Shown here: positions 1 through 27,679 of the stretch, in pieces | Position numbering within the stretch: the stretch's first letter is position 1 | Layout: each line of letters starts with the position of its first letter | From: a virus | DNA: 64,000 bases | Direction: 5' to 3' (one strand) | Virus record (IMG/VR): IMGVR_UViG_3300032271_000867 | Coordinates: 1 to 64,000 of that record | The notes under the pieces: model-generated | What the model was told of the DNA's origin: nothing | Seen by the model: the letters and a program-made list of their open reading frames with translations, nothing else | The model's database searches: none | Position numbers and translations under genes: made by a program

Positions 1-288
1 TGCCGTTAGAGTTACTCGTTTAGGATAGGTTACAGATTCGACGAGCTCGACAGCGGTTTGCTGGTCAAGGCTGGCCGATTCCAACAAGCCCTCGGCTGTG
101 TGATTCAACCAAAGCTCCCTTTCATTGTCATAGGCAAAAAAGCTCGATTCATCGCAACTCAAAACAAAAATAAAAGGCAGCTTGTCGGCGTGTGTTTCGA
201 GCTTGTAGAGTTGGCCAGCTTGCCGGGCTGTCGTTTGAAAGGCATCGAGCGTAATCTCTATGAGTTCGCCGGGCTTGAAGTAGTTCAT
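1..288 (-). CDS. Hypothetical protein, 3' end cut by window edge
   Basis: This reading frame starts with ATG at 288 and stays open for 96 codons to the left edge, so the C-terminus is missing. The protein begins MNYFKPGELIEITLDAF and contains no motif that I recognise. The start codon overlaps the TGA of the upstream gene in an ATGA junction, which indicates translational coupling and supports both the start and the reality of the gene. It is transcribed leftwards, away from the plus-strand arm that begins at 882. Function is unknown. Confidence 0.7.
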   Translation of the reverse strand, partial: MNYFKPGELIEITLDAFQTTARQAGQLYKLETHADKLPFIFVLSCDESSFFAYDNERELWLNHTAEGLLESASLDQQTAVELVESVTYPKRVTLTA

Positions 289-680
289 TTTTTGCCCTGC
301 TGGTAACGCTCAAAGGCTTTGGCTGCTTGTTCGGCAGATTCCCTAGTTTCAGCTTCGACAAGACGGCCAGCGTGTTCGTAGGCATCAAGTCCGAGATTCC
401 CAACAAGGCTAAGAGCTTCGCCCAAATGCCAGAGTTCGAGATAACCGAGGCGAAGTTTTGCAAGGTCGGTTAGGGTTGTGCCTAGTTCTTCATCAGTCCA
501 ACCAATGAGGTCGAGAAACAAAGTAAAAGGGTTTTGCCCGAAGTCGTAGTTTGTGCTTAGTCGGTAAAGGTCGTTTATTGCTTCGAAGCGGTCGTTTTCA
601 AGTAGTTGATCCGTTGTCTTTTCGTTCTCAAGCTCACGCCAGCTTTTCGCAGGCTGTGGGTTGTCTGTGTTCTGTGCCAT
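285..680 (-). CDS. Hypothetical protein (131 aa)
   Basis: The protein of 131 residues begins MAQNTDNPQPAKSW. It is rich in charged and helix-forming residues, and its C-terminal third (ETRESAEQAAKAFERYQQGK) looks like a long amphipathic helix. An in-frame start exists at 740, but the extra 20 residues (MLCFFCRATARFKRR...) look like translated leader and lie over a hairpin. I therefore prefer the ATG at 680, although the ribosome-binding site (GGGGC) is weak. The gene is coupled to the next leftward gene by an ATGA overlap. I recognise no family. Confidence 0.65.
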   Translation of the reverse strand: MAQNTDNPQPAKSWRELENEKTTDQLLENDRFEAINDLYRLSTNYDFGQNPFTLFLDLIGWTDEELGTTLTDLAKLRLGYLELWHLGEALSLVGNLGLDAYEHAGRLVEAETRESAEQAAKAFERYQQGKK

Positions 681-707
681 TAGTTGCCCCAATGTTCGGC
701 GTTTGAA

Positions 708-723
708 TCGGGCGGTTGCCCGA
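708..723 (-). other. Small leader hairpin
   Basis: A perfect 6-bp inverted repeat (TCGGGC and GCCCGA around a 4-nt loop) lies 28 bases upstream of the start at 680 on the minus strand. A long A-rich tract (T-rich on the minus strand) sits upstream of it in the direction of transcription, so it is not a standard terminator for that strand. It may be a 5' leader structure. The sequence shows only the fold potential. Confidence 0.35.
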
Positions 724-881
724 CAAAAAAAACATAACAAAAAACCAAAAAAAAAGCAATAACCAACAAAAAGTGCAACGACACACCGAGCGAAGCGACT
801 TTTTGATTTTGTCGCTAAAGGCTGCTTGACTTGTCGAAGTTGGCCAATCGGCCAGCTAAAAACCGAGTGATTGGATCACCA
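724..881. promoter_or_regulatory. A-rich divergent intergenic region
   Basis: This gene-free stretch separates the leftward pair from the rightward arm, so it should carry divergent promoters. It contains an A-rich tract at 724-765, a 6-bp hairpin (AGCGAC and GTCGCT) near 804-826, and a short TGGCC/GGCCA repeat near 840-853. On the minus strand a TTGCTT and TTATGT pair about 16 bp apart is a possible weak promoter. I could not find a convincing plus-strand -35/-10 pair. Confidence 0.4.
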
Positions 882-1430
882 ATGAACACACAAGAAACCG
901 CACCTGGCAACGCTCCGGCGCTGTTCGACTTGCTCGAGGGCAGCAAAACGCACAGCGAGGTTTACTCCAAAGTATTTAGCAAAATGACAGGCAAGCCAGC
1001 AACCGATTTTCTGCCAAACCCAGGCGATGCGTTTGCGTTGGCGCAGCTCGACTTGGCGTTTGAAAACTTAGAAAAACTCGACGCTTTGCTAATGGAAGTT
1101 GCAGACCTAACTATTTTTGACATTCTGCACATTGACCAGACAGCTATTGCACAAGCGATTTTTGATGAATCAGGCAGAACGCTAGACGAACAAGCTAAAA
1201 ACAAAGAACAAGAGTTCGAGCGTTACGCCTCGATAGCTGAAAAAGCAGAAGCTAAGAAGCTGAAAGTCTTTGAGATTCTAAGTGGAACGCTTTACCAGAC
1301 CGAGGCAACCACAAAAGAGGAAGCTCTAAAGAAGTTTGAAGTCTGGTTCAACAACGAGGCTTGCGAAACTTGCACAGACACCTGTAAGTGCGTTTTTGAA
1401 GTTGAACCGCTAACAACCACGCTCGATTAG
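882..1430 (+). CDS. Hypothetical protein with C-terminal Cys cluster (182 aa)
   Basis: The ATG at 882 gives MNTQETAPGNAPALFDLL and a protein of 182 residues. A TTG start at 831 is also in frame, but its product would begin in a low-quality leader that contains a hairpin. The body is acidic and mostly helical. It ends in a cysteine cluster (EACETCTDTCKC, about residues 164-175) that could bind a metal. It is the first gene of the arm that leads to the AAA+ and vWA genes. I recognise no family. Confidence 0.65.
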   Translation: MNTQETAPGNAPALFDLLEGSKTHSEVYSKVFSKMTGKPATDFLPNPGDAFALAQLDLAFENLEKLDALLMEVADLTIFDILHIDQTAIAQAIFDESGRTLDEQAKNKEQEFERYASIAEKAEAKKLKVFEILSGTLYQTEATTKEEALKKFEVWFNNEACETCTDTCKCVFEVEPLTTTLD

Positions 1431-1530
1431 CCGAGCAGAGCTGGTGCTGGCTGCACTTTTTGAGCGTTCGATTCGTTCACAGCTCACAATCTCAACCGAG
1501 ATTATCCCTAGAAAAAGGAGCGCAGACACA

Positions 1531-1821
1531 ATGTCTGATGAACAGCAGCAACCAGATAAGCCGTATTTTGACTTTTTCACTTTGGGCGAGGCACAAGCCA
1601 TTCTCAAAGGCTTAGAAATGGTCTATCCGATGCTCTCTATGATGCGACTACACGCTGAAGTAAGTGACAAAGACGAAAAGGATTTTGTTGCCGACCGCTT
1701 GCAAGATGTAATCAACCTAATCAAGCGTATGCAAGAATGGCCGGGCTTGATTGGTTCATTCCCAGGCGATAATGACGATGACGATGACGATGATTCTTGT
1801 GACTGTGGACACGATCACTAA
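1531..1821 (+). CDS. Small acidic protein with metal-binding-like tail (96 aa)
   Basis: The start at 1531 (MSDEQQQPDKPYFDFF) follows a strong AAAGGAG ribosome-binding site, so I prefer it to the in-frame start at 1444. The 96-residue protein has a helical core and ends in a run of aspartates followed by SCDCGHDH. Such an Asp-Cys-His tail could bind divalent metal, but that is inference. Its stop overlaps the next start in a TAATG junction. The family is unknown. Its position just before the AAA+/vWA pair suggests a shared role. Confidence 0.75.
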   Translation: MSDEQQQPDKPYFDFFTLGEAQAILKGLEMVYPMLSMMRLHAEVSDKDEKDFVADRLQDVINLIKRMQEWPGLIGSFPGDNDDDDDDDSCDCGHDH

Positions 1822-2357
1822 TGGTCAATGATGCAGACTGGGATTATGCAGAGCTCGGCCGTCTAAACGAGGGCGAGATTGCAGCCCTTTTGCGACAAGA
1901 GCGTGAGGTTGGATTTCGAAACGCAAATACTGTGACAAAAAACATCGTTTTGAAGTTATGTGATGCTGTGGAAAACAATCTAGGCTCAAAAGTAGCAAAC
2001 GAGTGTGTGTCTATGGAAGATTTTGAGTTGGTGCACAACGCCATACGGATTTTGCTCGACCTCAGATCGCCCGATTATCACGAGATGCTAATGGCTTTGA
2101 TTTGGCGCAGAGTTGAAGTTTTTTCGGTTATCCGAGCAACAGAAAGAGTGCGAAGCAAATGTAAAGATTATTTTGTGCTCCGAATCGTTCATAACCCTGC
2201 GAACGAAACACAAAAGCGCTTATCTCAATCCATCAAATGGTCTATTGCGAACGATAACCAAGAGTTTGAAATGTTCGGAAGCCAATCTGATCAAATACCA
2301 CCAGAGGAACGACCTTGTTTGCTCAACGGCAACTACTGTTTTTTTTGCACACCCTAA
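1821..2357 (+). CDS. Hypothetical protein (178 aa)
   Basis: The protein begins MVNDADWDYAELGRLNEGEI and is translationally coupled to the upstream gene by TAATG. The N-terminal 100 residues look all-helical. The C-terminus carries scattered cysteines (ERPCLLNGNYCFFC) that could form a metal site. I recognise no domain. It is the last gene before the AAA+ ATPase and probably belongs to the same transcript. Confidence 0.65.
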   Translation: MVNDADWDYAELGRLNEGEIAALLRQEREVGFRNANTVTKNIVLKLCDAVENNLGSKVANECVSMEDFELVHNAIRILLDLRSPDYHEMLMALIWRRVEVFSVIRATERVRSKCKDYFVLRIVHNPANETQKRLSQSIKWSIANDNQEFEMFGSQSDQIPPEERPCLLNGNYCFFCTP

Positions 2358-2399
2358 CCAACACTAAAAAACCCAAACAATAAGGAATAAATACCAAAA

Positions 2400-3677
2400 A
2401 TGAAAACCACAACACCCAACTCTTTCACTATCTACACAAGTGATGTTCCCCAAACAACTTTTGAGCGACAAGTTTTTGTTGCCAAGTTTGGTGAGATTAC
2501 AAAAATCGCTTCTCGATTGCTTGATCGCAACAGCAATAAGGCGGTTCGCAAAAGCTGGAACTTTGAATCGGCTGCGACTTTTGTTGCTTCGATCTCTGAA
2601 GCCGAACAACTAAAAACAGAACCAATCCAAAGCACTATGCGGGCTAACTTTGTGCAGAACTTCATAGTAGACAACAACCTAAACGCTGCCGGGCTAAAGG
2701 CTGTCAGAGAACTTATGGAAGCAAAACCTATGCTGATTAGCGTTTCTCTAAAAAAAGTTTTGTCTAGCCTTTTCGAGCAAACAAACCTTGAGTTTGAAAC
2801 CGCTGAAATAGCAACACCTGCGCCGGACTTCGCAAACGCTTGGGCGACGCTTTCGATTCCAAAACCTGAGGCACTAACCAATGGCGTTTACTACCCTCGA
2901 ATCGTTGAGAACAAGACGGAACAAGAATGGTATGAAACAGCGCTGGAGTGCAAAATGGCTGTGGCGATTTTTGGCGAAGCTGGAACAGGTAAAACTTCGA
3001 GTGCCGAGGCCGAAGCTGCAAGGCGTAAAGTGCCTTTTGTAGTTATGGAGTGCAACACAATGATCACAGACGAAAAGACCCAGGGGCGCTATGTTCCAAC
3101 GGGTCGTGGCAACGAACTTGAATGGCGTTACAGCGAGTTTGCAACGGCACTAGGGCAAGAATCGGTTATTTTGCTCAACGAAGCCAGTCGTATGTCACCA
3201 AAGGCAAACGCCTTGTTTATGCGTGTGCTTGCCGAGGGTGAGTTGATTATTGACACGCACAAAAACGAGAAAATCACTAAGCACCCACGCTGTTTGATTA
3301 TTGCCGATGCCAACCAAAACTATCGTGGCACGATGAACCCAGACCAAGCGTTCCTAGACCGCTTGCTAGTCAAGCTGGAGTTTCAGTATGACGAGGCGAT
3401 TGAAGCAAAGTTTATCCCTAGCCCTAGTCTGTTAGAGCTGGCTAAAGAGATGCGCCGAGCTGCTGCAACAAACGGCAAGTTTTCGACACCGGTATCAACT
3501 CGCTTGCTAAAAACTTTTGTGTCTATCGCACAGAAACTTAGTTTTAGAGCGGCTGTCTACAACTTCACAAACAACTTCGATCTTGACGAGCGTTCAAGTC
3601 TAAAAATGATGTTTTCAACCTACGCCGAAGCTATTGCTTCTGAACTAGGTGCTGAAACAGAGGATTTTGAGCTATAA
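2400..3677 (+). CDS. CobS/MoxR-like AAA+ ATPase
   Basis: This is a 425-residue protein with a C-terminal AAA+ module. Walker A is GEAGTGKTS at about residues 192-200. The Walker B-like strand is VILLNEASR at about 256-264, and FLDRL near 318-322 fits the arginine-containing segment of MoxR/CobS-type ATPases. The N-terminal 150 residues are helical and not recognised. MoxR-type ATPases work with partner proteins carrying a von Willebrand A domain, and such a gene follows after one base. In CobS-CobT the pair drives cobalt insertion into corrins. Other MoxR pairs mature or remodel metalloenzymes. The substrate here is unknown. The AAG GAA ribosome-binding site lies rather far upstream. Confidence 0.85.
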   Translation: MKTTTPNSFTIYTSDVPQTTFERQVFVAKFGEITKIASRLLDRNSNKAVRKSWNFESAATFVASISEAEQLKTEPIQSTMRANFVQNFIVDNNLNAAGLKAVRELMEAKPMLISVSLKKVLSSLFEQTNLEFETAEIATPAPDFANAWATLSIPKPEALTNGVYYPRIVENKTEQEWYETALECKMAVAIFGEAGTGKTSSAEAEAARRKVPFVVMECNTMITDEKTQGRYVPTGRGNELEWRYSEFATALGQESVILLNEASRMSPKANALFMRVLAEGELIIDTHKNEKITKHPRCLIIADANQNYRGTMNPDQAFLDRLLVKLEFQYDEAIEAKFIPSPSLLELAKEMRRAAATNGKFSTPVSTRLLKTFVSIAQKLSFRAAVYNFTNNFDLDERSSLKMMFSTYAEAIASELGAETEDFEL

Positions 3678-3678
3678 A

Positions 3679-5607
3679 ATGCAACGGATTTCTTTAGATG
3701 ATTTAGACGCAACCGATTTTTTTGATGCAGATGATTTTGACACATTACCTAGCGGTTGGCGTGGTTGCGTTGGTGGCCCGAATCTTTGGTCAGAACAAGA
3801 GCAGCTTCAGCGTGAGATGTTGTCAAAAATGGTGGCTGATGCTGAACGCTACGCAAGCGTTATTTCAAAGCGTGATGTATCTGCACACCTAATCAACAAT
3901 GGTTCTGTTCCTGCTTTCAGCTCGGCGAGCTCGATTACTTTTGTTGCTGAAAAAATCGGACTTTTGACTGAACCCCACGAAGTCGCTGGAGTAAAAGGAC
4001 TAACGCTGCACGAAGTGGCGCACATTATGTTTACCCCACGATCGCAGACACCTTTTGCTCAATGGGCGATCAACAATGCAAAACTTGCCTATCGAGTAGC
4101 GGAAGATGCTCGTATCGAACACTTGTTTTTGGGTCGTTTTGGTAGTTTTGTTTCGCCCTGGCTTATTGCTAGTTGTTTGCGATTTTTGTTGGCAGATGAA
4201 ACCCACATCGTCGTTGCTTACCCTGTGATCGTTGGTCGCAAATACTTGCCTTTGGAAGTTAGACAAGCGGTCAGAAATGCCTACTTGTTTCCGGCAGATG
4301 CTTCGGCTATTCAGTCGCTAATCAACCGCTATCGAGTGCTTGTTTTTGACTCGCAAGAAGCGGTTGATGAAGCTAAGTTGGTTCTTGCAGAACTACAAGT
4401 GCTGCTTGAAAAGTTGCCGTTGATGCAAGACCCAAACGGCCACGAGCAAAGAAGCGATAGCGAACTTGAAACAAGTATCAGCAGACCATTAGCAGCAGAC
4501 GAGCAAAACAAGGCTAAAGCAACGGCTGATAAACGAGGGTTCAAAGATACAACCGACATAAGCGAACAAACTCAAGTTGATAAAGATACAAAACAAAAAC
4601 TTGAGCAGTATGGTCAAAAAGCAGAGTTATTGCCGCCTAATCAAGAGGGTGATGATCCTGCAAATGGCACAGGCGAGAATGACAGCAACAGCGAGGAATC
4701 AAGCAGCGTTAGTGGTCTTACTAAAAATGGTGATGCTAAAAATACTCTTGATCCTGCTGTAAAAGCGGAGTTTGCCAAGTTGTTTGACAGGATTCTTGAC
4801 GAAAATCGAGCTGAAATCGCAAGCGACATAAAGTCGTGGGCAAAGCAGCAAGAGATTCAAGGCGGTATTGTCAAACCTATTGAGAAACACTATTACAGCG
4901 ATAGCGTTCTTGACAACACTACTCACCTAATGGCTAAAAAGTTTGGGCAGCAACTTCAGGAGCTACGCTTACAACACGAACCGGGTTGGGATAAACGAGT
5001 GTCTAGCGGTCGAATCAACGCTGGCCGTTTATTGCGTGGCGCTGATCTTGATGAAGCCTTTGATCGTTTTGACGAGGGCAGAGATGATGCAACCGAGATC
5101 GAGTGCGTTATCTTGTTAGACAAATCGGGTTCTATGGGTGGCGCAAATGCTGATGCAGCTTATCGTGCTATGTATGCTGTCAAAAAAGGACTGCAAGCGT
5201 TACAAGCAAATACTACTGTTGTTCTGTTTGACCATTACACATACCTGCTTTACGAGGCTAAAGACAAAGTAAACAACAGCGTTCGAGATGCTGGTGCAAG
5301 CGGTGGAACAGATGCCACAGGAGCAGTAAATCACGCTCGCAGTCTACTTGCTTCTAGCAGTAAAGCTGTAAAAATGCTGCTAATGATCACAGACGGCGAA
5401 TGGGGTCAGACACCACGCATTGACTTAGAGATTATGGAGTTGCGAAACTCGGGCGTTCTAACGGCGTTCTGTATGATTGGCGATAGCTTTTCAGACAGCA
5501 CTCACAACGCTGAAATCTCTTTGCAAATAAAATCAGCTAAGGACATACTTGCATTAGCAAAGGGTCTAGTGAAGCTGGCTATCAAACGACAACTAACAAA
5601 ATACTAA
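3679..5607 (+). CDS. CobT/NorD-like vWA protein with HExxH motif
   Basis: The ATG at 3679 starts one base after the ATPase stop and gives 642 residues. The N-terminal part has HEVAH at 111-115 and EDARIE at 142-147, a spacing like gluzincin metal sites. An acidic low-complexity linker spans roughly residues 260-370. The C-terminal vWA domain has the MIDAS motif DKSGS at about 481-485, a GGTDATG segment near 541 and ITDGEWG near 571. CobT, NorD and related MoxR partners share the vWA part. The HExxH...EDxRxE combination suggests a bound metal or peptidase activity. The acidic linker recalls CobT. The gene ends at a strong terminator. Function in the phage is unproven. Confidence 0.8.
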   Translation: MQRISLDDLDATDFFDADDFDTLPSGWRGCVGGPNLWSEQEQLQREMLSKMVADAERYASVISKRDVSAHLINNGSVPAFSSASSITFVAEKIGLLTEPHEVAGVKGLTLHEVAHIMFTPRSQTPFAQWAINNAKLAYRVAEDARIEHLFLGRFGSFVSPWLIASCLRFLLADETHIVVAYPVIVGRKYLPLEVRQAVRNAYLFPADASAIQSLINRYRVLVFDSQEAVDEAKLVLAELQVLLEKLPLMQDPNGHEQRSDSELETSISRPLAADEQNKAKATADKRGFKDTTDISEQTQVDKDTKQKLEQYGQKAELLPPNQEGDDPANGTGENDSNSEESSSVSGLTKNGDAKNTLDPAVKAEFAKLFDRILDENRAEIASDIKSWAKQQEIQGGIVKPIEKHYYSDSVLDNTTHLMAKKFGQQLQELRLQHEPGWDKRVSSGRINAGRLLRGADLDEAFDRFDEGRDDATEIECVILLDKSGSMGGANADAAYRAMYAVKKGLQALQANTTVVLFDHYTYLLYEAKDKVNNSVRDAGASGGTDATGAVNHARSLLASSSKAVKMLLMITDGEWGQTPRIDLEIMELRNSGVLTAFCMIGDSFSDSTHNAEISLQIKSAKDILALAKGLVKLAIKRQLTKY

Positions 5608-5614
5608 AAACCTA

Positions 5615-5651
5615 AAGTGCCTAGTGTCGTAATGGCACTAGGCACTTTTTT
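5615..5651 (+). terminator. Intrinsic terminator after vWA gene
   Basis: A perfect 12-bp stem (AAGTGCCTAGTG at 5615-5626 and its complement at 5636-5647) with a 9-nt loop is followed by a T run. It lies 7 bases past the vWA stop codon. It ends the AAA+/vWA transcript at least in part, because the next gene starts only 20 bases later. Confidence 0.9.
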
Positions 5652-5672
5652 ATCAAAAGGAGAAAATAAAAA

Positions 5673-6374
5673 ATGCTAAATCAAGCGTTTCTAAAAGAAC
5701 TAAGTGCATTAGAAAAAACTAACAAAACCGCTGTTTGGGCAGTAGTTAGGTCAGACCAAGCGTGGCGGGTAAACTCAAATGACGCAAAACACAAACAAGT
5801 AAAAGAGCAGCTATGCGAGTTGGCGGTGCTAGTGGACACAATAAAGCGTGATCCTGCTTATCACGCAATCAGAGACTGGAGCAGCAACCCTGATCCTGCA
5901 CACGCCGCTGGTAACGCAAAGTCTTTTGGCTATCTATTCAAGAAAAAAATAAATGGTGTAGATTGCTACCGAGTAGTGCCGGTGCGTGACATTGTGGGTC
6001 AGGAAAGCGATCTTGTTGCTTGGTGGGCAGATACAGCGCTAAGAGATACTTTGGAATCAAGACGCAAAATGAAAATCGAAGTTGCCAGGGTTGATGCCCA
6101 AGCTGAAGTTGAAAACATAAAGAAAAAGATTGAGGCAAACATCAGAGAAATGACCGACAATCTAGTAGACGGATTGGGTGAAAAGTTGATTATCAAACCA
6201 GATGTTAGTATGACTTTTGAAAGCAAAGACACCGCTGATAAAAAAGATGTTGAAATCCAGGTTATCTTTAGTGATCCGAAATGTGACATTACATTGAGCT
6301 ACGAGCAATACCAGCAAATGCTTGAAGTTTTGATGAGATACAAAGACCTAACAGAGCTTGGGTTAGTGGCCTAG
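5673..6374 (+). CDS. Hypothetical protein with central coiled coil (233 aa)
   Basis: The start at 5673 follows an AAAAGGAG site. The protein begins MLNQAFLKELSALEK. Residues about 1-115 contain basic and aromatic segments (GYLFKKKINGVDCYRVVPV). Residues about 128-172 are a charged coiled-coil-like helix (ESRRKMKIEVARVDAQAEV and following), and a beta-rich C-terminus follows. I recognise no family. It lies between two terminators, so it may have its own transcript or arise by read-through of the AAA+/vWA operon. Confidence 0.7.
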   Translation: MLNQAFLKELSALEKTNKTAVWAVVRSDQAWRVNSNDAKHKQVKEQLCELAVLVDTIKRDPAYHAIRDWSSNPDPAHAAGNAKSFGYLFKKKINGVDCYRVVPVRDIVGQESDLVAWWADTALRDTLESRRKMKIEVARVDAQAEVENIKKKIEANIREMTDNLVDGLGEKLIIKPDVSMTFESKDTADKKDVEIQVIFSDPKCDITLSYEQYQQMLEVLMRYKDLTELGLVA

Positions 6375-6400
6375 AGAGGCCGTAGAAGCCCGATAAGAAG

Positions 6401-6431
6401 CCCTTAGCAGCAAGTCTGCTAAGGGTTTTTT
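6401..6431 (+). terminator. Intrinsic terminator
   Basis: A perfect 10-bp stem (CCCTTAGCAG at 6401-6410 and CTGCTAAGGG at 6416-6425) with a 5-nt loop is followed by six T residues. It lies 27 bases after the stop at 6374 and isolates the downstream promoter at 6517. Confidence 0.9.
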
Positions 6432-6516
6432 ATTGCCTGAAATCGGCGCACAGGAAGCTGATTACAGCGACATACCACAAGAATAAAAAAATCTTTGTAA
6501 AGACACGCCAAGATGC

Positions 6517-6552
6517 TTGACAAATACTTACCGAGGTAAGTATTCTATTCGT
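6517..6552 (+). promoter_or_regulatory. Promoter with palindromic operator, leaderless start
   Basis: TTGACA at 6517-6522 and TATTCT at 6541-6546 are separated by 18 bp and resemble a sigma70-type promoter. The spacer is almost filled by a perfect inverted repeat: AATACTTACC (6523-6532) and GGTAAGTATT (6535-6544) around GA. The repeat also covers part of the -10 element, so a bound dimer would block RNA polymerase. The expected transcription start falls at about 6553, the A of the ATG, so the mRNA would be leaderless. No Shine-Dalgarno sequence precedes the ATG. The regulator is unknown. Confidence 0.8.
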
Positions 6553-7044
6553 ATGCAAACATTCCTCACGATCGCAAGCACAGACTATGCAGCAACGGCC
6601 AGGACACTAGACAACAAACGCTTGAATAAGCAAGCTCTGGAAGCGTGGCAAATCCTAATGAACCTAACCAAGCTAGACCCGGCTGGTGATTACCGAGAAC
6701 CTAGAGGCTGGAGCAATCACCCGGCCGTCAAGATGTGGAGAGGTAGCGAGGGTAAGTTACTTGAATACATTTTGGCTATGGTCAAAGAGTGGCAAGATCG
6801 TGGCTATAACAGCACCATAGGAGATAAGGCCATAGCAACCTACGAGAGAGCTGTTCAGCTAGGGCTAGTGGGGCAAGAAGCTGACGAGCTGCCAAAATGG
6901 CAAAGCAACCAAGACAAGTTTGAAGCTATTACAAAGACACACCGACAAGCACTTTTAGTCAAAGACTATGAGTGGTATTCGCAGTTTGTTTGGGAAGAAG
7001 ATCTCGGATACAAGCAAGATTCTTATGAGTATGTTTGGGCATAA
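6553..7044 (+). CDS. Pyrimidine dimer DNA glycosylase-like (Pyr_excise)
   Basis: The 163-residue protein begins MQTFLTIASTDYAATARTLD and continues NKRLNKQALEAWQIL, then HPAVKMWRG. This pattern is characteristic of the actinobacterial branch of the pyrimidine-dimer DNA glycosylase family (Pyr_excise, T4 DenV relatives), whose members start MQTFLP with a D-x-x-RL-x-KQ segment and HPAVKMW. The predicted role is base excision of UV photoproducts. The start at 6553 matches the family N-terminus and excludes the TTG at 6517, which is the -35 element. The gene has its own promoter and operator, so it is probably expressed conditionally. Confidence 0.75.
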   Translation: MQTFLTIASTDYAATARTLDNKRLNKQALEAWQILMNLTKLDPAGDYREPRGWSNHPAVKMWRGSEGKLLEYILAMVKEWQDRGYNSTIGDKAIATYERAVQLGLVGQEADELPKWQSNQDKFEAITKTHRQALLVKDYEWYSQFVWEEDLGYKQDSYEYVWA

Positions 7045-7121
7045 AAGCAAAGCACTACCAAAAGACAACCAAAAATGTCACAGCAGTATGACAAGATAAA
7101 CCAATAGAAAGGAAGCACAAA

Positions 7122-7397
7122 ATGCTAACAGTAGAAGAATACATAAAACAACTAGAAGCCCTACCAAAAGACGAGGTGATTCTTGTTCCAATGATTTGGA
7201 CAAAAGCCATAGCAGAAGAAGAACTACTAAATGCAACAGAACTAGAAGTTGTTCTTACAAATGAACAATGGGAAAAAGCAGTAGAGATCTATGAAGCAAA
7301 TTACTATGCTGATTACGAGTTTATGGTTGAAGCTGTTCAGCAAGTCATTGGTGCAAAATACAACAGTGAAACATACGAGTGGAAAATAGGAGAATAA
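7122..7397 (+). CDS. Small acidic hypothetical protein (91 aa)
   Basis: The start at 7122 follows a GAAAGGAAG ribosome-binding site. The 91-residue protein (MLTVEEYIKQLEALPKDEV...) is strongly acidic and helical with many Tyr and Glu. It contains an LEALPKD segment that recurs in the next gene (SEALPKDKEIEALPKG). It starts the block of nine tiny plus-strand genes that ends in WhiB. No family is recognised. Confidence 0.7.
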   Translation: MLTVEEYIKQLEALPKDEVILVPMIWTKAIAEEELLNATELEVVLTNEQWEKAVEIYEANYYADYEFMVEAVQQVIGAKYNSETYEWKIGE

Positions 7398-7399
7398 AA

Positions 7400-7540
7400 A
7401 TGATCGAACTAACATTTGATAGCTGGGAAGATTTTGACAAAGCAATACCAAAAGTGGTTGCTTTAGCAGAAGCCTTATCAGAAGCCCTACCAAAAGACAA
7501 AGAAATAGAAGCCCTACCAAAAGGATCACTAGATAACTAA
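7400..7540 (+). CDS. Small acidic hypothetical protein (46 aa)
   Basis: ATG at 7400 begins MIELTFDSWEDFDKAIPKVV, and the protein ends KGSLDN after 46 residues. The segment ALPKDKEIEALPKG carries two copies of an EALPK motif, also present near the N-terminus of the preceding protein. The stop overlaps the next start as TAATG. The coupling and the GGAG site upstream make it a likely gene despite its size. Function is unknown. Confidence 0.6.
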   Translation: MIELTFDSWEDFDKAIPKVVALAEALSEALPKDKEIEALPKGSLDN

Positions 7541-7695
7541 TGAACACAGAACTAAACAAAGATCAGATTGCTGAACTAGTAGCAGTAGGTATCAAGCACG
7601 AACGAGAGCGTATCATCAAGTTGATTCAAGAGTGGATCAACAATGACGATGCAGACTTCCAAGAAATGTTTGCTCAAGTAAAGAAAGGAGCATAA
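7540..7695 (+). CDS. Small protein with ERERII motif (51 aa)
   Basis: The 51-residue protein begins MNTELNKDQIAELVAVGI and contains KHERERIIKLIQEW. The same ERERII-type helix appears in the gene at 7959 (LAERERIIKYLM) and in minus-strand genes near 18.2 and 19.5 kb, so this is a small recurring phage family. It is coupled to its upstream neighbour by TAATG. It is acidic at the C-terminal side and probably one or two helices. Function is unknown. Confidence 0.65.
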   Translation: MNTELNKDQIAELVAVGIKHERERIIKLIQEWINNDDADFQEMFAQVKKGA

Positions 7696-7699
7696 TCAA

Positions 7700-7873
7700 A
7701 TGGCTGAAATTGAATGCCCTGAGTGCGGAGAAATCTGCACTCAGGAAGAACTAGATCAGTGGGAAATGTGCCACGACTGCGACAACTCTCAATGTGAAGA
7801 GTGTGGCTTGTTCGAGGGTCACGAAAAGTATTGTGCTGTCGGTCTTTGGGAATACTTAGACAATGCAGAATAA
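7700..7873 (+). CDS. Zinc-ribbon-like microprotein (57 aa)
   Basis: The 57-residue protein begins MAEIECPECGEICTQEEL. It has eight cysteines, arranged as CPECGEIC, CHDC, CEECG and a later YC, plus histidines. This fits one or two structural zinc sites of the zinc-ribbon type. An AAAGGAG site precedes the start. Such small Zn proteins are common in phage early regions and often modify host factors, but no target can be named. Confidence 0.7.
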   Translation: MAEIECPECGEICTQEELDQWEMCHDCDNSQCEECGLFEGHEKYCAVGLWEYLDNAE

Positions 7874-7886
7874 AGGAGACTAACTA

Positions 7887-7958
7887 ATGGATTTATTTTT
7901 AGGAGTATGCCTAATAGTTTTATTTGCTATTTGGTTTATTATAAAAGGAATTAAATAA
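7887..7958 (+). CDS. Single-span membrane microprotein (23 aa)
   Basis: ATG at 7887 encodes only 23 residues: MDLFLGVCLIVLFAIWFIIK, then GIK. Almost the whole product is one hydrophobic segment ending in lysines. A strong AAAGGAG site lies 8 bases upstream, and the stop abuts the next start at 7959 without a gap. The good ribosome-binding site and exact packing support it as a real gene. It would insert in the cytoplasmic membrane. Function is unknown. Confidence 0.55.
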   Translation: MDLFLGVCLIVLFAIWFIIKGIK

Positions 7959-8147
7959 ATGAATAAAAATATGGAAGAATACAACAAAGGTGTATTAGAT
8001 GGAACTCTTGCAGAAAGAGAACGCATTATCAAATACCTTATGGACAAAAATGTTTTGCGTGAAGCTTACTTTTACGAAGGCCTAGTTGCTATGGATATTG
8101 ACGGTAACACCGGCATTGATCTTGATAAAAAGTTAGGTGGGGAATAA
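7959..8147 (+). CDS. Small protein with ERERII motif (62 aa)
   Basis: The 62-residue protein begins MNKNMEEYNKGVLDGTLAER and carries ERERIIKYLMDK, paralogous in its first half to the 51-residue protein at 7540. The C-terminal half (VAMDIDGNTGIDLDKKLG) has a D-x-D-G-N-T-G-x-D run that resembles a calcium-loop pattern, though at this length that may be chance. It directly follows the membrane microprotein. Function is unknown. Confidence 0.65.
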   Translation: MNKNMEEYNKGVLDGTLAERERIIKYLMDKNVLREAYFYEGLVAMDIDGNTGIDLDKKLGGE

Positions 8148-8285
8148 ATGTACACCAAATTTTGGCAAGTAAAAAAACAAGATGAAGTTGTAAATATTTC
8201 TTTTGTTACTAAAAAATCAGCACTTTTATGGATTGCTGACCAATCAAATCCTGAAGAATACGAAATAATGAAAGTGAGTATGTAA
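8148..8285 (+). CDS. Small hypothetical protein (45 aa)
   Basis: ATG at 8148 directly follows the previous stop and encodes 45 residues beginning MYTKFWQVKKQDEVVNISFV. It looks like a small beta-plus-helix protein of the kind found in many phages. The stop overlaps the next start as TAATG. I recognise no family. Support comes from packing within the operon rather than from homology. Confidence 0.55.
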   Translation: MYTKFWQVKKQDEVVNISFVTKKSALLWIADQSNPEEYEIMKVSM

Positions 8286-8509
8286 TGTCTATATACGAAG
8301 ATGGTGGCTCAATAAAAGGATCTGGTGTTGATGCTTTTGAGTTTGAGTATGGTAACTTTACTTGTAAAAATGAAGAATGTTTGCTAGATAACTATGATGC
8401 TGTTGCTTATGGCAATGATTGGGGTTACTGGGAAGTAACCTGTGAAGAGTGCGACGTGCTTCACGACAGTGGAACTCGTAATACGCCGGAAGAGGAGGAG
8501 TGGTGGTAA
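8285..8509 (+). CDS. Small Cys-containing acidic protein (74 aa)
   Basis: The 74-residue protein begins MSIYEDGGSIKGSGVDAFEF. It has two paired-cysteine knuckles, CKNEEC and CEEC, spaced by about 20 residues, so it could bind one zinc ion. It ends with an acidic EEEEWW tail. It is coupled on both sides by TAATG overlaps, and the RBS for the downstream WhiB lies in its last codons. Function is unknown. Confidence 0.65.
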   Translation: MSIYEDGGSIKGSGVDAFEFEYGNFTCKNEECLLDNYDAVAYGNDWGYWEVTCEECDVLHDSGTRNTPEEEEWW

Positions 8510-8817
8510 TGAATCTTCTTATTGATATTTTAGATAGTGAAAAAGCACTGTGCACCCAAGAAAATCCTGATGTTTTCTTTGAAGAAGAAGATGTTGAAAC
8601 TACTCTTTATGCAAAACTTGTTTGTTCAGGATGTTCTCTTGTAGAAACCTGTATTGACAAGGCTATGCAAATTGATGATACTCAAGGAGTATGGGGAGGT
8701 AGCACTACACAGGAAAGATTATTGTTTAGAAAAAAACCTGAATACAAGGAGCTTCATATAGTTATGCTTCGTAAGTATGAGGGCGAAAAAAGTGTTCTAA
8801 ACATTATTCGCAAATAG
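8509..8817 (+). CDS. WhiB-family iron-sulfur regulator
   Basis: The start at 8509 follows AGGAGGAG and overlaps the previous stop as TAATG. The 102-residue protein has the four cluster cysteines of WhiB proteins: C15, then C39-x2-C42-x5-C48. The signature turn GVWGG is at 60-64, followed by a basic segment (TTQERLLFRKK). WhiB proteins bind a 4Fe-4S cluster and act with the host sigma factor. They occur only in Actinobacteria and their phages. It is last in its operon, before a strong terminator, and probably retunes host or phage transcription. Its targets are not visible from sequence. Confidence 0.92.
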   Translation: MNLLIDILDSEKALCTQENPDVFFEEEDVETTLYAKLVCSGCSLVETCIDKAMQIDDTQGVWGGSTTQERLLFRKKPEYKELHIVMLRKYEGEKSVLNIIRK

Positions 8818-8850
8818 AAAAAGCCCCTAGCCATAAACTAGGGGCTTTTT
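8817..8850. terminator. Bidirectional intrinsic terminator
   Basis: AAGCCCCTAG (8821-8830) pairs perfectly with CTAGGGGCTT (8838-8847) around a 7-nt loop. It is flanked by A residues on the left and T residues on the right, so it works in both directions. It sits between the plus-strand WhiB stop (8817) and the minus-strand RNR stop (8859), where the two convergent transcripts meet. Confidence 0.92.
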
Positions 8851-20425: not shown

Positions 20426-21268
20426 CTACTCCTTATATGGGTCACATTGTTTGCAAGTACCACTTGGGTTGTTGGTACATTCTGGAACAACTCCTGCATT
20501 TACTGAGTCTACCACAACTTTTGCTTTGTCAAAAATGTGTTCTACTAAACCAAAGTCAGCTTTTACTGGCTCAAATTCACGGTAATCTTGGTCTGCTTTT
20601 AGTTCATAAAGGAAAATAATTTCAGTAACTTCTTCGTGACCCATACGTTTCATAAGTTCTAAGTACATTTGACCTTGAAGAATGTGACTTGAAAATGGAC
20701 GTTTAATTGCTTTCCATGCCTTCATAAAGTCACCATCAGCTTCTTTCATTAGTTCTGGAGCTTCAAAACGTAATGTACCGGGACCCACTGATTTAATTTC
20801 AATTAGTGCATCACCTTGTGAATCTTTAATCCATCCATCAGTATGGCCTTTAATTCGTAAAGAATCATCTGAGAGAGTTACCTCTGCATAAATAAGGTCT
20901 GGTTTTCCGCATCGATCGCAGGACTCTGGAGAAGTTCCCCAAGTAATCCAATGACAGGCTTGGCATTTAAATTGACCATGCAAAATGCCCATTTCTTGAA
21001 AATATCCTTGCCATTTAGAGTGAACAGCATGGCCGGTATCAAATACAGACTGTAATTTTAACGGAGGTTTTTCTGCAATTTTTGTTTCTCCATTTAGTAA
21101 AAAGTAAGATCCTCGCATACACCAATCTTTTTTTATAATTTCTGAAGGATGTAGTACAGTAGTACTTCGATTACCCGGAGGTCGTTGTAGCAAGTGTCGT
21201 TCTAAATTTCCAATAAGTCTGGTGTTAGTTTTTTTAGCGTCTAAAAAACGCTTTAGTTCTGAGCTCAT
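20426..21268 (-). CDS. Cas4/RecB-like PD-(D/E)XK exonuclease
   Basis: The 280-residue protein has the RecB-type core: GHTDGW (D144), ALIEIKS (E157, K159) and HILQGQMYLEL (the QxxxY motif at 198-202). Cysteines C50 and C264, C272, C275 match the arrangement of an iron-sulfur cluster in Cas4 and AddB-type nucleases. A separate C102-x2-C105...C117-x2-C120 knuckle is inserted before the core and suggests zinc. The predicted role is DNA end resection for recombination with the RecA gene 1 kb downstream. Confidence 0.85.
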   Translation of the reverse strand: MSSELKRFLDAKKTNTRLIGNLERHLLQRPPGNRSTTVLHPSEIIKKDWCMRGSYFLLNGETKIAEKPPLKLQSVFDTGHAVHSKWQGYFQEMGILHGQFKCQACHWITWGTSPESCDRCGKPDLIYAEVTLSDDSLRIKGHTDGWIKDSQGDALIEIKSVGPGTLRFEAPELMKEADGDFMKAWKAIKRPFSSHILQGQMYLELMKRMGHEEVTEIIFLYELKADQDYREFEPVKADFGLVEHIFDKAKVVVDSVNAGVVPECTNNPSGTCKQCDPYKE

Positions 21269-21600
21269 TTATTCCTTATGTTTAGTGTTAGTACAAATTC
21301 TTCTAAAGACATTTTGCCTTTTTTGGTTTTTTGCCATTTTCTTATTAAAGCATTTCTTTCTCTGTGGGACATTCCTCCCCAAATTCCATGCTGTGTGTCA
21401 GTTTCAATTGCTTCCCATAAACAAATATTTTTTACAGGACATGGGGTTGTGCCATTTTCTCCAAAACAATACTTTTTAGCTTGTGTTGCTATTTTTTTAT
21501 ATAAAGACTTATCTCTTGGTGGAAAAAATAGCTCAGTGTCTGCTCCTTCACAAGCAGCTTTGTGCCACCACCTCAGATCGTCATCAGAGTCTTTGTTCAT
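21265..21600 (-). CDS. WhiB-family iron-sulfur regulator with unusual Cys spacing
   Basis: The 111-residue protein has the WhiB layout: WWHKAACEGADTELFFPP (C17), a cysteine region near 45-60, then GIWGG at 72-76 and a basic tail (SHRERNALIRKWQKTKK). The cluster cysteines are C17, C45, C54 and C60. The usual C-x2-C pair is stretched to C45-x8-C54. The FFPP segment and the basic C-terminus otherwise match WhiB. It is a second WhiB in the window, in the nuclease operon. It may bind DNA with a sigma factor. Confidence 0.9.
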   Translation of the reverse strand: MNKDSDDDLRWWHKAACEGADTELFFPPRDKSLYKKIATQAKKYCFGENGTTPCPVKNICLWEAIETDTQHGIWGGMSHRERNALIRKWQKTKKGKMSLEEFVLTLNIRNK

Positions 21601-27199: not shown

Positions 27200-27679
27200 T
27201 TATTTATTATACACTACTTCTGACCATTGTTTTTCAATGGCTTTAGTCAGATCTTCGTGTTTTTTCCACTCTACACGAGCAGAACCTAATAAATTACGTT
27301 TTTCAAATTCTTCAATTGCAATTTCAATTAGTTCTCGTGTATAAACACGATTTCCACTAACTTTTTTTTCATTTAAAATTTTTGAACGTAATCTATAGGG
27401 AGAAGCAGGAATATAACCTTTTTTCTCCCATAAACGGATAGTAACTATTTGTTTTTCTAATGCTAATGCTAATGCACTAATTGTAAACATTTCGGTTTCT
27501 ACACCATTTAGAATTTTTTTGATTGGATTTTCATCCCAACCATTTGATTCATTTAGAATTTTAGCACGTCTTTTTTTAGATAAATCTGTTGGATCTTTGC
27601 GTTTTTGCTTAGATCCTGGAACGTATTCTAAATCTTCAAATGCTTTTAAAATTTCTTCTTGACTTCTAATTCCAGTCAA
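27200..27679 (-). CDS. MerR-like HTH DNA-binding protein (159 aa)
   Basis: The frame starts with TTG at 27679 behind an AAGAAG site. It has a basic N-terminus, and then TISALALALEKQIVTIRLWE, KKGYIPAS near residues 65-92, which matches the MerR-type helix-turn-helix and the tyrosine-containing wing. The effector-binding part of MerR regulators is missing, so it may be a small recombination- or regulation-related binder. It lies between a coiled-coil protein and the SSB candidate. Confidence 0.65.
   Translation of the reverse strand: MTGIRSQEEILKAFEDLEYVPGSKQKRKDPTDLSKKRRAKILNESNGWDENPIKKILNGVETEMFTISALALALEKQIVTIRLWEKKGYIPASPYRLRSKILNEKKVSGNRVYTRELIEIAIEEFEKRNLLGSARVEWKKHEDLTKAIEKQWSEVVYNK

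Follow-up and report, generated by a model that had tools for sequence, protein, structure and literature searches.

The question raised by this locus is how a phage controls the expression of a DNA repair gene that stands directly behind its promoter, and whether a perfect palindrome in that promoter takes part in the control. The stretch of DNA analysed here, termed the window, comprises the first 64,000 bases of a viral record of 88,412 bases, and the virus is an actinobacteriophage, with water-dwelling actinobacteria as its host group. The promoter can be read directly from the + strand: a TTGACA −35 hexamer (6517–6522) is followed, after a spacer of 18 nt, by a TATTCT −10 hexamer (6541–6546), then by six bases, and then by the ATG at 6553, so the boxes and the spacing proposed from the sequence alone are indeed there. 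Since the ATG lies six bases past the −10, the A of this codon is the predicted +1. Over 20% of actinobacterial genes are leaderless, and such genes are recognised by a TANNNT core that stands 12 nt ahead of the start codon (PMC3160421); the first T of the −10 hexamer is at this very position, 12 nt 5′ of the ATG. Neither a Shine–Dalgarno nor a purine-rich site was found before ATG 6553, and the pair 6541/6553 thus has the actinobacterial leaderless arrangement. This site (6517–6546) is the sole perfect TTGACA/TANNNT promoter between genes across the whole 88,412-base record, and no second promoter-like site was found on the + strand from 5000 to 8650.

The gene that follows (6553–7044, + strand, 163 aa) encodes, to judge from profile and fold, a T4-endonuclease-V-like enzyme with a predicted pyrimidine-dimer DNA glycosylase activity. 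The attribution to UV repair made in the sequence-only reading was borne out by Pfam family PF03013 (E 7e-19; 68.3 bits against a gathering cut-off of 23) and by a fold match to 2end. The AF2 model, built with 27 sequences in the alignment, has a mean pLDDT of 95. Foldseek found no significant match to this model in the PDB, and a second structural look (VIA) placed 2end, T4 endonuclease V (DenV), at the top (Z 8.4, 119 residues, rmsd 3.5), with the unrelated row after it at only Z 4.3. The two proteins thus share family and fold, but they are only 13% identical over the aligned residues, the window protein is longer, its N terminus is Met-Gln-Thr rather than Met-Thr (hence Gln at residue 2, where the T4 enzyme has Thr), and its gene has a leaderless promoter of its own. 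In the homologue alignment, Q2, T3, F4, R23, and E30 are invariant or nearly so. Enzymes of the T4-endonuclease-V class use the N-terminal amine for catalysis, and the exact start codon is therefore important. A TTG at 6517 was considered and rejected, being merely in frame, while the homologues begin at the position of ATG 6553 (MQTF); because nearly all of them begin in this way, ATG 6553 is taken as the start.

Is this arrangement peculiar to one virus? A comparison set of 80 loci in viral contigs, with glycosylase relatives at 49–62% identity, shows otherwise. The strict pattern TTGACA-N17/18-TANNNT-N6-ATG, with the same −35 hexamer at the same distance as in the window, falls exactly at the glycosylase start in 27 of the 80 loci; of the 1108 other genes in these loci, 4 have it (Fisher p about 6e-30, shared descent ignored). 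These leaderless glycosylase promoters represent 14 clearly different upstream sequences, with the window counted in; the relatives have N17 spacers of other sequences, and the window has N18. Most of the other relatives have a Shine–Dalgarno site, often with a TATAAT-like box around 30 nt upstream. In the glycosylase tree, most of the leaderless loci fall within one weakly supported set of 21, and some, including the window on a long branch, fall outside it. The four control genes with the pattern all belong to two near-identical loci, L029 (at 2593 and 4788) and L031 (at 2668 and 4863), each of which has the strict leaderless promoter at two genes other than the glycosylase. In seven loci (L015, L023, L024, L032–L034, and L044), GTAAGCGGTACANT is kept up to and over the −10 upstream of the glycosylase match, the remaining spacer being variable, and this conservation exceeds what a plain promoter needs.

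A start of transcription further upstream, with a leader whose RNA would fold at the palindrome into a hairpin across the start, would give a different meaning to the same sequence. The palindrome RNA would in fact fold (−8 kcal/mol), but an intrinsic terminator of the upstream gene (5673–6374) lies just ahead, at 6401–6431 on the + strand (stem 6401–6410/6416–6425, then T6; −26.1 kcal/mol, z −7.0), which agrees with the earlier claim that a terminator isolates the promoter; moreover, no promoter-like site was found between 6425 and 6517, the ATG has no ribosome-binding site before it, and 27 relatives repeat the leaderless geometry. An upstream start is accordingly very unlikely. The placing of the ATG at the predicted start of transcription, another point of the sequence-only reading, is strongly backed by this recurrence in related phages as a leaderless sigma-A-type layout, and the leaderless promoter of the repair operon is very probably both real and conserved. 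No description of this promoter, or of the operon behind it, was found in the literature, and the promoters of uncultured freshwater actinophages are, in the literature found, apparently undescribed so far. A strict leaderless promoter that recurs at one gene could help to recognise early expression and to fix exact start codons across a large group of phages.

The same reading had described the promoter as a stand-alone switch for the repair gene. It instead heads an operon with some 9–10 small genes and with a WhiB gene and a terminator at its end. After a gap of 77 nt behind the glycosylase gene come small, overlapping or closely spaced genes on the + strand (7122–8509, by gene calls: 7122–7397, 7400–7540, 7540–7695, 7700–7873, about 7887–7959, 7959–8147, 8148–8285, and 8285–8509), probably all of the same operon, no promoter-like site being found from 6553 to 8500. 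Those tested gave no Pfam or PHROGs family. The last gene (8509–8817, +) encodes a WhiB-like regulator (PF02467, E 1.6e-16), and an intrinsic terminator at 8818–8850 on the same strand (−23.1 kcal/mol, z −6.9) closes the operon. Phage WhiB proteins have been described as a marker of actinobacterial hosts, and the freshwater actinophages and phage TM4 have such a regulator in common with the window (PMC6802176, PMC10202952); the texts of these two papers, searched for these terms, mention neither a glycosylase nor a promoter, and contain no operon of the kind described below.

Where related loci extend far enough, most have a WhiB gene on the same strand, 0.85–1.06 kb downstream of the glycosylase gene, with a single conserved gene, X (about 113 residues, for which no Pfam or PHROGs family was found), between the two; this order is also that of the isolate DSL-LC01. 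This glycosylase–X–WhiB operon recurs among freshwater actinophages (L002–L081), where the WhiB protein has a C-terminal Cys-rich extension; in the window, small genes of no known function stand in place of X. Such a module links DNA repair with the control of host transcription. Of 18 records that have a related capsid gene, some of them fragments, only 1 contains the glycosylase. Because the capsid-related phages thus mostly lack it, the stretch from glycosylase to WhiB resembles an accessory cassette equipped with a promoter and a terminator of its own; this, together with the patchy occurrence in sister phages, is what characterizes a moron-type element.

The palindrome is perfect, as had been noted from the sequence alone. 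It consists of two 10-bp arms around a 2-bp centre (AATACTTACC-GA-GGTAAGTATT, 6523–6544, by direct reading), and it fills the spacer completely and reaches four bases into the −10 hexamer, leaving the −35 free. It is a putative operator. Another possibility is that the conserved leaderless promoter has no operator at all and that the palindrome, which would then bind nothing, arose by chance or by template switching (a quasi-palindrome product). Chance does yield about one perfect 10-bp-arm inverted repeat per 88 kb: with loops of up to 8, the record has 6 such repeats, of which 3 resemble terminators, as against around 1.1 per shuffle, so one somewhere in the record is unremarkable. Yet the chance of such a palindrome inside this particular promoter is about 4.5e-4, and none of 3000 shuffles of the 60-nt promoter region produced one.

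Phage operators are mostly repeated. The present palindrome has a single copy in the window (search with up to 3 mismatches), its core occurs once in all 88,412 bases of the record when up to 2 mismatches are allowed, and no homologue carries the palindrome, which counts against an operator. Conservation in homologous phages, the absence of which the sequence-only reading had named as evidence against it, was looked for and not found: besides the window's own, 0 of 82 glycosylase upstream regions and 0 of 79 loci of a second, overlapping search contained the palindrome. The nearest glycosylase homologue is just 62% identical, and loss or replacement of an operator is for this reason indistinguishable from its absence; nor is synteny a source of nearer relatives, since viral contigs contain no close relatives of the neighbouring genes at 5673 and 3649. 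The 20-base form of the palindrome was not found in other viral contigs, and its 16-base form occurs there in seven places, unrelated or coding. By these comparisons, the palindrome is private to this virus.

Several partial or exact matches elsewhere were set aside. The other exact ones, whether in genomes (of Amphritea, Moranbacteria, and others) or in viral contigs, are in coding sequence or in unrelated surroundings. A near-copy, CCTTACCGAGGTAAGG, in a phage with a related capsid (G116) is coding sequence (codons YLGK), and one contig (L348) has TTGACG-N17-TAAGAT with the dyad but belongs to an unrelated phage and is a doubtful case. The core, CTTACCGAGGTAAG, has at least 119 occurrences in viral contigs, mostly with no link to a promoter.

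What, then, might bind the palindrome? A search of prokaryote genomes (257 billion bases, 84,980 species) found its 18-base form in eight places, 0 of them actinobacterial. One of these, in Kluyvera, stands ahead of a MarR-family gene (PF01047), around 35 bp from its start codon. The site is present, with at most 1 change, in 6 of 10 genomes of the genus, and it also occurs upstream of MarR orthologues of 68–88% identity, with the consensus ATACTTAYC-N2-GRTAASTAT. This recurrence, in the genus and before the orthologues, marks palindromes of this class as a conserved regulatory site beside the MarR gene. Across the Enterobacteriaceae loci concerned (L182–L198), the consensus palindrome precedes the MarR-family gene, and in Kluyvera a HlyD-like gene adjoins. 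The phage palindrome has the same arm and the same 2-bp centre and fits every specified base of the consensus; the bacteria are distant, though, and there the site precedes the regulator's own gene, whereas the phage record has no such regulator. The likeness points to a kind of protein but is no evidence of kinship. Since a nearly identical site is kept in front of a MarR-family gene, the most plausible candidate for the putative binder is, by sequence likeness, a dimeric repressor resembling MarR.

In the record, no MarR, TetR, or XRE-type repressor was found above cut-off, the helix-turn-helix of an HNH endonuclease aside, and a MarR_2 match in a replication-initiation-like protein is below threshold. 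Since the closest match is of the MarR type and the record contains none, the repressor would be a MarR-like protein of the host or the product of a phage gene beyond the record; a host regulator is unproven, because the exact 18-base match is absent from the actinobacterial genomes searched. The lack of a repressor gene in the record, like the lack of the palindrome in any homologue, would suit a promoter with no operator. The match to a conserved MarR-type site, on the other hand, argues against a meaningless palindrome, as does an enrichment of dyads at the glycosylase promoters of other phages (see below). On this evidence, a palindrome that binds nothing is possible but the less probable case, and we lean slightly towards regarding the private palindrome as an operator.

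A phage protein had also been put forward as a candidate regulator, namely the MerR-like product of the gene at 27200, which might bind the palindrome and activate transcription across the 18-bp spacer in the manner of MerR. This protein matches a PHROGs "transcriptional regulator" family, and the dyad is located in the spacer. However, the dyad is displaced towards the −10, and a spacer of 18 bp is nothing unusual. The protein is, moreover, 60–76% identical in nine related phage records, mostly devoid of the glycosylase, where its gene lies in the replication region; a search for the palindrome core in eight of these records gave no match resembling the window's promoter site, and the closest match (in G116) is the coding one. 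The candidacy is thus not supported: the 27200 gene belongs to the core of phages in which this palindrome is missing and is unlikely to encode a private regulator, and MerR-style activation by its product is most improbable.

The predicted function of the gene, the repair of UV damage, invites the idea of SOS-type control, the palindrome being a damage-response box of the LexA or PafBC class through which repair would be induced by UV. The actinobacterial LexA box (GAAC-N4-GTTC) is absent from the promoter, as the sequence-only reading had correctly stated, and its only copies in the window are at 1206 and 27045. Likewise, the PafBC (RecA-NDp) motif TTGTCRGTG-N8-TANNNT has no match at 6517–6546. 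To our knowledge, the palindrome is unlike any other LexA box, and damage-dependent control of this kind is very unlikely.

Dyads occur at the glycosylase promoters of other phages too. Among distinct promoters of this gene with a recognisable −35 and −10, 6 of 23 have a dyad with arms of at least 7, as against 3 of 126 promoter-like controls in the same loci (p 4e-4; with the window excluded, p 2e-3), a modest enrichment that is suggestive only, because the controls are mostly coding sequence. The dyads are of different sequence and position: in L051 and L028, AACCCTTTCT/AGAAAGGGTT flanks the −10, while those of L065 (TTAGGTT/AACCTAA) and L020 (GTTCTAT/ATAGAAC) are centred on it; in L021, which is outside the set of 23 promoters, CCTAAAC/GTTTAGG extends from the −10 to +1. 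The arms around the −10 lie upstream of 1938 in L051, of 3034 in L028, and of 1501 in L105; the dyad is largely kept in the close pair L028/L105, and L051 has the same arms with another loop. In L028 and L105, T5 follows the dyad, which could there also act as a terminator that overlaps the promoter.

These dyads raise the possibility of a general scheme, in which one conserved leaderless or short-leader promoter for an early glycosylase–X–WhiB operon would carry an unrelated operator dyad in each actinophage lineage. This scheme is unlikely. If true, it would imply that repressor specificity changes rapidly while the promoter stays fixed, and it might reflect host repressors that silence incoming phage, or else the exclusion of one phage by another. 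Private dyads, if they are operators, would be pointers to new repressors of the first-expressed phage genes.

Promoter geometry and recurrence, gene identities, operon layout, terminators, and the palindrome were computed directly. From these, a self-contained early-expression cassette may be pictured, with a leaderless promoter and a putative operator. The host RNA polymerase, with its housekeeping sigma factor, would use the near-consensus promoter at 6517–6546, and the transcript would begin at the A of the ATG, so that the glycosylase would be translated from a leaderless mRNA, presumably early, upon entry of the phage DNA. Transcription would continue through the small genes to WhiB and stop at 8818–8850; the task of the glycosylase would be to repair UV dimers in phage DNA as it enters or replicates, and that of WhiB to adjust transcription in the host. 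A dimeric repressor on the palindrome, over the spacer and the −10, would block RNA polymerase. For this explanation taken whole, the balance is even.

The promoter has the design of known actinophage systems without their defining repeats. In the extended start-associated sequences (ESAS) of cluster K mycobacteriophages, SigA-like −35 and −10 boxes 17–18 bp apart are overlapped by an inverted repeat, as in the window; their regulator is not known, and repression was proposed by the authors (PMC3203893, PMC11373665). The ESAS repeats, by contrast, are imperfect, 15–17 bp long with 12–14 bp between them, present several times per genome and beside a start-associated sequence (SAS), whereas the window has perfect 10-bp arms, a 2-bp gap, a single copy, and a leaderless gene, and thus lacks what defines an ESAS. 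The PL1, PR2, and PL2 promoters of cluster O mycobacteriophages are leaderless SigA promoters, a design common with the window, but the 17-bp dyad repeats of these phages number over 30 per genome and lie mostly away from promoters, as opposed to one dyad over the promoter here (PMC4351075).

The left end of the window has peculiarities of its own. AAA ATPase and VWA-domain genes stand side by side at 2400–5607 (a MoxR/VWA-like pair) and have almost no relatives in viral contigs. The G+C content is 43–46% in 1–8000 as against 32–41% in the rest, and the direction of the genes is also different; this left arm may be of separate origin. A second WhiB gene of the record lies at 21265–21600 of the window, in a leftward gene block.
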